Of a DNA stretch of 64,000 bases, positions 8,670 to 50,394 are shown piece by piece. The stretch spans positions 124,001-188,000 of the forward strand of contig MKTY01000024.1 of assembly GCA_001898485.1 (NCBI GenBank). Reading direction: 5' to 3'. This stretch comes from Sphingobacteriales bacterium 46-32. GTDB taxonomy: Bacteria > Bacteroidota > Bacteroidia > Chitinophagales > Chitinophagaceae. The notes beneath the pieces are model-generated. The model did no database searches and was not told where the DNA came from. It saw nothing but the letters and a program-made list of their open reading frames with translations. Within the stretch, counting starts at the first letter, position 1; the number at the start of each line of letters is the position of its first letter. The position numbers and the translations under genes are program-made.

Positions 8670-8752
8670 GATAAGGTAAACGGCAGATGGTAAAAGCCGG
8701 AAGGCAAAGCAAAGGCCCCTTAATCCTTTTACCTTCTGCCGTTTGCCTTATC
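8670..8752. repeat. 27-bp near-perfect inverted repeat filling a convergent junction
   Basis: The left arm (8670-8696) begins gataaggtaaacggc and the right arm (8726-8752) ends gccgtttgccttatc. The arms match at 25 of 27 positions and are separated by 29 bp. The left arm starts on the base after the peptidase TGA and the right arm ends 2 bp before the stop codon of the opposing gene. In RNA it would form a long stem, so it may act as a two-way terminator. The same words recur at 14427 and 38207. Confidence 0.8.
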
Positions 8753-28022: not shown

Positions 28023-28075
28023 TTTAACCCTTTAAACTCTTTAAACTCTTTAAACCCTTTAAACCCTTTAAACTT
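28023..28075. repeat. Nine-bp tandem repeat (tttaaactc / tttaaaccc)
   Basis: About six head-to-tail copies of a 9-bp unit varying only at the seventh to ninth bases. The array ends ten bases before the stop codon of the ABC exporter gene on the other strand. The word aaaccctttata occurs again near 46530. Confidence 0.8.
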
Positions 28076-28084
28076 TTATACCTT

Positions 28085-36986: not shown

Positions 36987-37778
36987 ATGGTAAACACATC
37001 TTCTTACCAGATTCGCCTGCCTCAGTTTGAAGGCCCGTTTGATCTGCTCCTGTTCTTTATTGAACGGGATGAATTGGATATTTATAATATTCCTATTACA
37101 AAGATTACCAACGATTTTCTGGATTATATTCATCAACAGGAGCATCTCAATATCGAGTTGTCGAGCGAGTTTATCCTGTTTGTATCCACGCTCATGCGGA
37201 TCAAAGCCAAAATGCTGCTGCCCCGCAAGGAGCTCGATGCCCAGGGCAATGAGATTGATCCCCGCCAGGAACTGGTTAATAAAATCCTGGAGTACAAACG
37301 CTTTAAGGAAGCATCTGCCCAGCTGGCCGAGATGGAAGCCATGCGCATGCTGATGGTAAAACGGGGCAATATCCAGAAAGAGCTGTCAGCTATAGGAGAG
37401 GAAGCCGGCGAAGGAACAGAAATCCAGAATATTACCCTGTTCAAACTGATGAAAGCCTTTGAACGGGCCATGCAGAAATACTCCGACCGGGTTAATAAAC
37501 CGGTACACACTGTGGTGCAGTACCGCTATACCATGGAAGTGAGCCGCCAGGATATGCTGGAGCTGGCGCAACGCGAAAAGACGGTTGCCTTTGAACGCAT
37601 TTTTGAGCAGGCCGAAAACAGGGTACATGCGATCTTCCTGTTTCTGTCGCTGCTGGAACTGGTACAGCAAAAGTTCATGAAGATCATGATTGGTGAAGGC
37701 AAAAATAATTTCATCATTGAATACAATGAGCCGGAAGATCGTCTGGCGGAAATAGAAGAAGAAAACCAACCACAATAA
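36987..37778 (+). CDS. scpA: Segregation and condensation protein A (kleisin)
   Basis: ScpA is the kleisin that bridges SMC heads and binds ScpB in chromosome condensation. The 263 residues open with YQIRLPQFEGPFDLLLFFIERDELDIYNIPI, the family signature, followed by SSEFILFVSTLMRIKAKMLLPRKE. The C-terminal winged helix has VAFERIFEQAENRVHAIFLFLSLLELVQQKF and EYNEPEDRL. The sequence is intact. It has no scpB neighbour in the window. The OsmC gene follows after 17 bp on the same strand and is probably cotranscribed, though the two have no known link. Confidence 0.95.
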   Translation: MVNTSSYQIRLPQFEGPFDLLLFFIERDELDIYNIPITKITNDFLDYIHQQEHLNIELSSEFILFVSTLMRIKAKMLLPRKELDAQGNEIDPRQELVNKILEYKRFKEASAQLAEMEAMRMLMVKRGNIQKELSAIGEEAGEGTEIQNITLFKLMKAFERAMQKYSDRVNKPVHTVVQYRYTMEVSRQDMLELAQREKTVAFERIFEQAENRVHAIFLFLSLLELVQQKFMKIMIGEGKNNFIIEYNEPEDRLAEIEEENQPQ

Positions 37779-37795: not shown

Positions 37796-38206
37796 ATGAA
37801 ACGTTTTGGAAGCGCAAACTGGAAAGGTTCCGGCAAAGAAGGTACAGGAACTACCAGTACACAATCAGGCGTTCTTAACAATACGCAGTATTCGTTCAAT
37901 AGCCGTTTTGCCGAAGGTATCGGCACCAACCCCGAAGAGCTGATTGCTGCAGCACATGCCGGCTGTTTTACTATGAAGCTGAGCTTTGTACTGAATGAAG
38001 CTGGTTTTACTGCTGATAATATTGATACGAAATGTACCATTACATTCGAAAATGGCGCTATCGTGGAAAGTCATCTGGATGTAACAGCTACCGTTCCCGG
38101 TATTGATGCGGCAAAATTTGAAGCCTGTGCAGCAGATGCTAAAGCGAATTGCCCTATCAGCAAATTGCTGAATACGCAGATATCGATGACGGCTGCTCTG
38201 GCATAA
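37796..38206 (+). CDS. OsmC-family peroxiredoxin
   Basis: A 136-residue thiol peroxidase of the OsmC/Ohr group, which reduces organic and inorganic hydroperoxides. Both redox cysteines are present: Cys57 in AAHAGCFTMKLSF and a second in DAKANCPISKLLN. The N-terminal GSGKEGTGTTSTQSGVL and RFAEGIGTNPEELI match OsmC more than Ohr. It acts in the cytoplasm as a homodimer. It lies 17 bp after scpA. Its stop codon is followed with no gap by the gataaggt repeat at 38207. Confidence 0.94.
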   Translation: MKRFGSANWKGSGKEGTGTTSTQSGVLNNTQYSFNSRFAEGIGTNPEELIAAAHAGCFTMKLSFVLNEAGFTADNIDTKCTITFENGAIVESHLDVTATVPGIDAAKFEACAADAKANCPISKLLNTQISMTAALA

Positions 38207-38268
38207 GATAAGGTATAGGGTGGAAGGTAGAAGGTAGAAGGTGTAAGGGGAATTTCTCCCACCTTCTA
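38207..38268. repeat. Purine-rich word repeat with inverted partner, left part of a junction array
   Basis: After the OsmC stop comes gataaggtataggg, then ggaaggtagaaggtagaagg. The word gaaggtagaaggtg (38230-38243) pairs with caccttctacctt to the right (from about 38260), giving a hairpin of 13-14 bp. The opening word equals that at 8670. Confidence 0.7.
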
Positions 38269-38678
38269 CCTTTTGTCTTTCGTCTCAACCAGCGCTTGCT
38301 CAGCAAAATTATTTCGATTAATAGATCAGTGAGGTCGTCGTCATCGTTGTCTACCCGTCTTCCTTTTCACCTTCTCCCTTTCACCGTTTGCCTTTTGTCT
38401 TTCGTCTCAACCAGCGCTTGCTCAGCAAAATTATTTCGATTAATAGGTCAGTGAGGTCGTCGTCATCGTTGTCAACCCGTCTTCCTTTTCACCTTCTCCC
38501 TTTCACCGTTTGCCTTTTGTCTTTCGTCTCAACCAGCGCTTGCTCAGCAAAATTATTTCGATTAATAGATCAGTGAGGTCGTCGTCATCGTTGTCTACCC
38601 GTCTTCCTTTTCACCTTCTCCCTTTCACCTTCTCCCTTTCACCTTCTCCCTTTCACCTTCTCCCTTTCACCGTTTGCC
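38269..38678. repeat. Three-copy 122-bp tandem array with nested 14-bp repeat
   Basis: Three nearly identical units begin ccttttgtctttcgtctc at 38269, 38391 and 38513, giving a constant 122-bp period. Only single bases differ (for example atagatcag against ataggtcag). The last copy ends with four tandem copies of a 14-bp unit, cttctccctttcac, up to about 38671. Units touch, with no spacers, so it is not a CRISPR array. The array reaches the stop codon of the L,D-transpeptidase gene on the other strand. Confidence 0.92.
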
Positions 38679-38679
38679 T

Positions 38680-39315
38680 CTACTCATAGATCCACAACAA
38701 TACTGGCTTCTTCGCACTTTCAATCAGCTTTTTCAACTGTTGTAATAACACAGGCGATACGGTAGGGCAGCCATCGCTTTGACAAAGTTCTTCACCATCG
38801 GGTGCATTGGGCACACATTCATGACTATGCAATACCACAAAACGCTGAAAGGCGTTGCTATTTGTTTTATCCAGTCCATACAGTTTGTATGCCAGGCCGA
38901 ATCTCCCATTATAAGAATAACCTACTTTATATTTTCCGAGTGAGGTGCAGCCGCTTCCGACTTCATTGCTGTAACGCCGTCCCTCGAGCCAGTTTTCGTT
39001 ACAACGGCCATGTGTGACGAGCCCCTGCAGACGAATACTGTCGCCGGTAGCGTCATATACAAAAAAGCGGTTTTGAGAGGAGGGCAGGCTCATGTCGATC
39101 AGGAAAAAGAGCTGCTCATGAAAACTGCGACTTCGGGCATAACGTTGTGCTTCGGCCGCCTTTTCCTGTAGTTTTTCGCGCAGTTTATTATTGGTGACTG
39201 TGTCTGGTCTTGCATCGGCCTGGAGACGATCTTTTTTAGTTAATAAACCGGATGAAAATAGCCAGGTAGTGCTGAGCAGCAGCACAAAAAGGATGAGTAG
39301 TGGCCGGGTGCGCAT
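38680..39315 (-). CDS. Exported murein L,D-transpeptidase-like protein (YkuD-like fold)
   Basis: A 211-residue protein. The start at 39315 (MRTRPLLILFVLLLSTTWLFSSG) gives a signal peptide; an in-frame ATG at 39372 adds 19 polar residues. The catalytic part runs FFLIDMSLPSSQNRFFVYDA, GLVTHGRCNENWLEG, KYKVGYSYNGRFGLAYKLYGLD, FVVLHSHECVPNAP and the Cys motif QSDGCPTVSP. The His and Cys are those of the murein L,D-transpeptidase catalytic domain family, which crosslink peptidoglycan stems or attach proteins to them. The length before the domain is short. The stop lies at the end of the tandem array. Confidence 0.84.
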   Translation of the reverse strand: MRTRPLLILFVLLLSTTWLFSSGLLTKKDRLQADARPDTVTNNKLREKLQEKAAEAQRYARSRSFHEQLFFLIDMSLPSSQNRFFVYDATGDSIRLQGLVTHGRCNENWLEGRRYSNEVGSGCTSLGKYKVGYSYNGRFGLAYKLYGLDKTNSNAFQRFVVLHSHECVPNAPDGEELCQSDGCPTVSPVLLQQLKKLIESAKKPVLLWIYE

Positions 39316-39413
39316 AATGGATGGTTTAGCCGTACAGAGATGCTGTGTAAACGGCATTCCACAACGGCGCATCGTCTTTACGCTGTTAAATAAAACTGAA
39401 AACGAATCCGTGT

Positions 39414-46355: not shown

Positions 46356-46385
46356 GCAATGCAAATTGGTAAACGGCAAAAATAG

Positions 46386-46569
46386 GTTATAAGTTTTAAG
46401 TTGTAAGTGATAAGTAGGAAGTAAGGCTGAAGGTGGACGATGTAAGGAGATAAGTGGTAAGTAATAAGTTTTAAGTTCTATGTTCTAAGTCGTGTGTAAT
46501 ATGTAAGAGGCCTGCACTTTAAACCTATTAAACCCTTTATACTCTTTTAACCTGCTGTCAACTGTTAAC
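46386..46569. repeat. Composite word-repeat array upstream of nrdJ
   Basis: Three word types follow one another: ttaagttttaag/ataagt words (46386-46508), aaacctattaaaccctt words (about 46518-46552) and gtcaactgttaac (46557-46569). All three also occur in other junctions of the window. The rest of this 452-bp gap holds the possible small gene at 46622. Confidence 0.65.
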
Positions 46570-50247: not shown

Positions 50248-50278
50248 ATCCCGCTTCGAAAGGAGCGGGATTTTTTTA
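50248..50278 (+). terminator. Terminator of nrdJ
   Basis: Stem atcccgct(tc) / (gg)agcgggat closed by a GAAA tetraloop, then seven T. Confidence 0.88.
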
Positions 50279-50285
50279 GTGGACG

Positions 50286-50394
50286 GTTAACAGTTGACAG
50301 TGGACAGTTGACAGAAAGTTTTAAGTAATAAGTATTAAGTTATAGGTAGAATATACATTTCTCTTCTGTTCACTGTCAACCGTCCACTGTTAAC
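50286..50394. repeat. 29-bp imperfect inverted repeat around taag words
   Basis: The left arm 50286-50314 (gttaacagttgacagtgg...) and the right arm 50366-50394 match at 24 of 29 positions when one is reversed. The 51 bp between them hold ttaagtaataagtattaag words. The right arm ends five bases before the stop codon of the CE2-like gene at 50399. The words match those upstream of nrdJ. Confidence 0.7.

Follow-up and report, generated by a model that had tools for sequence, protein, structure and literature searches.

Bacterial variable-number tandem repeats (VNTRs) of the ordinary kind are common, and the mycobacterial MIRU units constitute one family spread over the genome. In PMC12306157, REPs situated no more than 15 nt from a stop codon are described as able to lower translation. 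Heptamer direct repeats such as TAACTGA, as presented in PMC4679880, are seven-base tandem repeats, intergenic and also found in some Bacteroidetes; in the main genome studied there, repeats of this type lie mostly just upstream of start codons, and one indirect repeat is recorded. Among Bacteroidota, the BrickBuilt element of Porphyromonas gingivalis is portrayed in PMC4596501 as one 23-nt repeat, its MITE occurring 19 times in one strain.

The locus considered here lies in a 64,000-nt stretch of Sphingobacteriales bacterium 46-32 (the window), where a tandem array stands in the spacer between the ends of two convergent genes, an osmC-like gene that begins 17 nt behind scpA (36987-37778) and an L,D-transpeptidase (LDT) gene. 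The array is a lineage-specific intergenic minisatellite, an ordinary kind of object in an unusual setting of hairpins built from short repeated words, and it is this setting, not the array itself, that we regard as the interesting part. The features of the locus are as follows:

37796-38206, + strand, osmC-like gene (OsmC, PF02566)
38210-38248, + strand, AAGGTNN word tract (TRF), 3 nt past the osmC stop, its purine strand reading away from osmC
38218-38285, no strand assigned, hairpin in which the osmC word tract is paired with the first inverted tract and the opening bases of unit 1 (from the fold of 38207-38285)
38269-38390, no strand assigned, array unit 1, 122 bp (TRF and unit alignment)
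38391-38512, no strand assigned, array unit 2, 122 bp, with two substitutions relative to unit 1
38513-38634, no strand assigned, array unit 3, 122 bp, merging at its end into the 14-bp word expansion
38605-38671, − strand, word tract expanded to 4.8 copies of 14 bp, including four exact CACCTTCTCCCTTT (TRF and unit comparison)
38680-39372, − strand, LDT gene (YkuD_2, PF13645)

TRF places the array at 38269-38629 with a period of 122, 3.0 copies and 98% matches, in agreement with a first-pass annotation that had described three units of constant 122-bp period differing by a few bases. Between any two units, 2-5 of the 122 sites differ: two between units 1 and 2, and three between units 1 and 3, all in the final five bases, where unit 3 enters the extra words. 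The nested 14-mer CACCTTCTCCCTTT, which consists of two 7-bp AAGGTNN words, starts at 38368 in unit 1, at 38490 in unit 2, and at 38612, 38626, 38640 and 38654 in unit 3 and its extension. With one 14-mer in each of the first two units and four at the end, the last copy has therefore gained three repeats, where four had been proposed. Read on the LDT strand, the expanded tract is AAAGGGAGAAGGTG, directed away from the LDT gene; the repeated region stops at 38678, and the LDT stop codon (38680-38682) lies one base further. As 3.0 head-to-tail units of 122 bp, the array falls within the minisatellite/VNTR range of tens to hundreds of bp, and it is not a product of chance, since one dinucleotide shuffle of a 1.66-Mb sample yielded zero tandem arrays with a period above 24. 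A coding reading of the region, through a 62-aa open reading frame at 38388-38576, was set aside because 122 is no multiple of 3. On the hairpin and the array, Rfam gave eight matches, to miRNA and other families, all far below gathering scores and taken as chance. A plasmid search with the array region retrieved two records, both at osmC genes.

Comparison of the genome under study (G000) with its sister species (G001), one genome per species, gives the array a history. At the orthologous osmC-LDT junction, G001 possesses one unit, ~86% identical to the units here, in contiguous sequence; the copy-number change anticipated by the first-pass annotation thus stands as a difference between species, 3 here versus 1 in G001. 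Because the three units differ so little from one another, yet are only ~86% identical to that of G001, their duplication or homogenisation postdates the split from G001, which bears on the earlier view of a recent expansion; in this unrooted two-species comparison, the difference in number may be a gain here or a loss in G001. A single simple duplication series does not explain the units, as judged from two positions: site 57 is A in units 1 and 3 and G in unit 2 and G001, while site 84 is changed in unit 2 alone, with units 1 and 3 in agreement. Exchange or conversion among units, or repeated mutation, would thus have taken part in the history of the array. The same comparison bears on whether the array is an assembly artefact, a concern already raised in the first-pass annotation. 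In G001, three or more of the loci of other arrays run up to a contig end, which indicates that such arrays are hard to assemble, but the units here differ at defined sites, the array sits in the interior of a 376-kb contig and the single-unit state of G001 is contiguous, so that an artefact is very unlikely.

The single G001 unit comprises a core between two like-oriented AAGGTNN tracts, seen as pyrimidine words on the + strand. We consider it likely that the array is a local minisatellite formed when a 122-bp piece of spacer was duplicated in tandem, seeded by the word tracts of a gene-end hairpin. Slippage in replication or unequal exchange between the two like-oriented tracts, with a crossover presumed at the shared ACCTTT, would duplicate the intervening segment; one unit would become two and then three with some exchange among units, and the end tract would also grow, in 14-bp (two-word) steps.

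The words at the unit edges belong to a genome-wide class of 7-9-bp tracts that are concentrated just past stop codons and are often hairpin-capable. These were surveyed in 1.664 Mb of G000 (C20:1-1600000 plus the window), with genes called as longest open reading frames of at least 90 aa and no trained gene finder, which leaves some spacers and directions wrong. TRF rows of periods 7, 8 and 9 numbered 27, 52 and 44 between called genes versus 2, 3 and 6 inside them, and one dinucleotide shuffle gave zero rows of these periods but 7 of period 14 and 1 of period 18. A stricter autocorrelation scan of periods 5-20, which gave 53 merged tracts versus 160 from TRF, likewise found mainly periods 7, 8 and 9 below 14 (20, 19 and 16 between genes; 1, 1 and 1 inside). 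Among spacers of at least 50 bp, TRF tracts were held by 30/128 convergent, 58/483 same-direction and 16/183 divergent spacers, a convergent excess with Fisher P values of 0.0005 versus divergent and 0.002 versus same-direction; an initial smaller sample had given 24/69, 27/238 and 8/97, respectively. Autocorrelation tracts follow a weak order (10/128 convergent, 28/483 same-direction, 7/183 divergent), and the convergent excess therefore rests on the TRF rows. For the 153 tracts of C20, the nearest gene boundary was a stop codon in 93 cases and a start codon in 60.

The words fall into several families: AAGGTNN, TAAGTTN and AGTTGAC (7 bp), GATGTGCT and GATTTGAA (8 bp), and GTWTAAAGG (9 bp). 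When the 78 tracts that are nearest a stop, belong to a listed family and read outward are considered, 68 lie within 15 nt of the stop. Since the word list was drawn up after inspecting the data, the orientation figures derived from it are partly circular: within 40 nt, 71/73 tracts at stops and 27/29 at starts read away from the gene, and at any distance 79/92 and 48/55 do so, with 13 unoriented tracts left out. Oriented tracts occur in 95 spacers, 56 with a single orientation and 39 with both; 38 of the latter open with an outward word and close with its complement, and the remaining one is RFR. Long GATGTGCT arrays of ~15-21 copies run from, or just before, called stop codons at G000:C20:1323078-1323251, 1324715-1324831 and 1547436-1547554. 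Within the window, further word tracts or word-like hairpins are present at 8670-8752, 28026-28082, 46382-46476 and 50278-50348.

Identical words at many genome sites, together with ~32-bp inverted ends in the G001 spacer, are what would be expected had a MITE landed in the spacer and later been duplicated, the word tracts being its ends. The array core, however, has no other copy: the genome search for single copies of the unit that the first-pass annotation had proposed, conducted across the whole genome with the 122-bp unit, found none besides the array, and shared copies of the core at several sites are accordingly lacking. The remaining matches to the unit were to its pyrimidine words, apart from four of 14-19 bases in other unit parts, at E values of 2-7. 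Among 22 loops of at least 30 nt between paired tracts, two pairs were alike at E 1e-3, and eight of the 22 had more than one match in 1.66 Mb, one of these being the window array itself. With the tracts also clustering beside stop codons, insertion of a MITE is quite improbable.

Local duplication at word tracts can further be weighed against other arrays of the same genome. Twelve spacer arrays with basic periods of 67-122 bp were counted in the 1.664 Mb; coding-called arrays of 51 and 53 bp were excluded, and arrays 985298, 1052902, 1425732 and 1529941, flagged as coding by the ORF rule, were retained as spacer arrays after inspection. At least one gene end is adjoined by 10 of the 12 (686755 by the 90-aa ORF calls). 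Two arrays, 322856 and 704918, have a start on either side, their spacers being divergent, for which reason the statement that every array sits at a gene end was dropped. Most of the other arrays with ~67-122-bp units in the sample adjoin word tracts, and a TRF word tract lies within 100 bp of 8 of the 12, a ninth having words by eye only. Non-array spacers contain word tracts in 95 of 780 cases, with 12.8% of their bases near tracts; the proximity of 8/12 would have a P of 2e-5 if arrays fell by length, although this P is uncorrected for array length, and since arrays are long the comparison is not strict.

The frequency of ordinary VNTRs, and the three of 12 arrays that have no words, would fit an array that arose independently of word tracts and happens to occupy a word-bearing spacer. 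Such a coincidence is unlikely, given that the unit edges coincide with word tracts, that the nested 14-bp repeat is the word itself and that arrays lie near tracts as often as they do. Two of the three wordless arrays are based on a GCATTGCAATGC palindrome and one on tRNA 3′-end sequence. The REP-like palindrome around GCATTGCAATGC underlies G000:C20:985298-985734 (period 110) and 1044538-1045412 (period 106), and the unit of G000:C20:1052902-1053381 (period 108), which abuts a tRNA-Phe gene, is composed of tRNA 3′-end sequence and a terminator-like hairpin.

Ten of the 12 array loci were compared with G001, where locus 1044538 meets a contig end. Five are single or absent there (the window array, 322856, 686755, 704918 and 982675), and four have other periods: from G000 to G001, 99 to 106 at 1111871, 101 to 107 at 1278258, 108 to 102 at 1425732 and 87 to 93 at 1529941, with the G001 copy numbers at the last two being minimum values because the contigs end there. 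The unit that G001 has at 1278258 takes in the final codons of the gene upstream, and blastn matches it to the G000 array only over the array's last ~34 bases; this gene end has therefore seemingly been amplified in two ways. Recurrence by other genes fits mutational bias and speaks against selection of copy number as a phase-variation switch for tuning the expression of LDT or osmC. The position of the window array at 3′ ends and its copy-number difference between species would suit a switch, which we nonetheless consider very improbable. Among other genomes, G011 displays spacer arrays of smaller units (48-60 bp, in 400 kb), and no long arrays between genes were found in G010 or G006 (400 kb each); the unit size and array formation may therefore not be general.

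The osmC-side hairpin at 38218-38285 has a predicted energy of −37.5 kcal/mol and a z of −6.1 (fold of 38207-38285, the right edge being set by the fold cut); it extends 17 bases into unit 1 and stands between the osmC stop and nearly all of the array. In G001, the 181-nt osmC-LDT spacer forms a single hairpin next to both stop codons, with ~32 pairs and one mismatch (−67.3 kcal/mol, z −9.8; ungapped score 30). The window's osmC-LDT spacer as a whole has a z of −2.1 and a stretch of the array one of +1.0; the LDT-side tract, taken by itself, has no structure. The expansion therefore left the osmC hairpin in place and put distance between the LDT tract and its partner. This divides the earlier suggestion that the array could alter the 3′ end of either transcript. 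The scpA-osmC end should be little affected, since its hairpin precedes nearly all of the array, whereas the LDT mRNA would cross the array before meeting a partner strand and is probably the likelier transcript to change. On the proposed mechanism, a higher copy number would mean a longer LDT mRNA tail, and the osmC hairpin would keep its place ahead of the array.

Word hairpins may act as two-way transcript ends or as mRNA 3′ protection, replacing ordinary terminators. A script-based check of 26 LDT loci from named records found osmC convergent to LDT at 13, G001 among them. Of the other 12 junctions, 10 possess a compact hairpin whose arms are not periodic (score 9-15, loop 2-18), and two have none at the threshold. 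These ordinary compact hairpins in relatives suggest a transcript-end role for the word hairpin. The array locus has a stable hairpin after the osmC stop codon, but a simple scan for the classical terminator found no match there, a T-run directly behind a compact stem being absent. Tracts and compact hairpins tend to exclude each other where spacers of 60-600 bp separate same-direction genes (2/52 versus 58/376, P 0.02); in convergent spacers of this size they are not mutually exclusive (9/28 versus 25/89, P 0.81), which, like the negative terminator scan, speaks against a transcript-end role.

Polarity independent of the word list was assessed by comparing pairs of stop-adjacent tracts that share 6-mers and scoring whether their outward sense is the same or opposite. 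Same-to-opposite counts were 774:97 in G000, 29:1 in G010 and 520:22 in G011; G006 displayed no polarity (1:2 pairs, 15 tracts). An inverted partner was found more often in a tract's own spacer than in that of another tract in G000 (100 versus 47 of 153), G011 (143 versus 46 of 174) and G006 (10 versus 2 of 15), and equally often in G010 (11 versus 11 of 23). Tracts are very dense in G011:C2:1-400000, with 174 in 400 kb and periodic arms in 40 of 78 intergenic hairpins. The word vocabulary differs between lineages. Across 59 genomes, including that under study, GTTTAAAGRGTWTAAAG occurs 96 times in G000, 26 times in G001 and once in the remaining 57, and RATGTGCTRATGTGCT occurs 379 times in G000, 122 times in G001 and between 1 and 6 times in four further genomes, while AAGGTNN triplets are more widely spread (14/59). 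G002, placed in the same genus, has zero occurrences of all three; its LDT end carries a different 7-bp word in both orientations (by eye), and the neighbour is not osmC.

We tentatively advance, as a proposal with somewhat less than an even chance of being right, that these observations define a Chitinophagaceae class of gene-end elements. Its members would be hairpins with arms of tandem 7-9-bp words, with fixed polarity to the stop and a vocabulary shifting between genera, would occupy the place that ordinary terminators have in relatives, would turn over by slippage and would, independently in sister species, seed recurrent amplification of ~70-120-bp units. The class is undescribed so far as literature searches show; six word runs were not found as text in the papers searched, although sequences seldom stand in main text. 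The locus offers a testable case of the birth of a bacterial minisatellite, in which short-word hairpins near gene ends would supply the repeated tracts and the intervening segment would be duplicated, an event that seems to have recurred and not to be confined to one species. Should transcripts end at the hairpins, these would constitute a fast-changing, lineage-specific 3′ element little noticed so far, and certain mRNAs would acquire longer 3′ ends as arrays grew.

Among known systems, intrinsic (Rho-independent) terminators are similar in placing a hairpin straight past the stop codon, as the compact ones do at most relatives' osmC-LDT junctions; here, however, the stems are repeated words, the loops span 7-221 nt (39 paired tracts) and the classical stem-plus-T-run pattern has no match at the array. 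MIRU/VNTR loci share tandem intergenic units of some tens to ~120 bp, with copy number varying between lineages, but the core amplified in the window array is local to it, and only the edge words are common to other sites. Enterobacterial REP/BIME elements, as characterized in PMC12306157, likewise form hairpins near stop codons; here there is no single conserved palindrome, and the arms are tandem 7-9-bp words of several families with loops mostly unlike one another. Compared with the TAACTGA-type heptamers, the tracts here more often follow stop codons and often have an inverted copy. BrickBuilt (PMC4596501) is also an intergenic minisatellite that has inverted ends and belongs to a Bacteroidota genome; the present units differ from it in being local and of other sizes.
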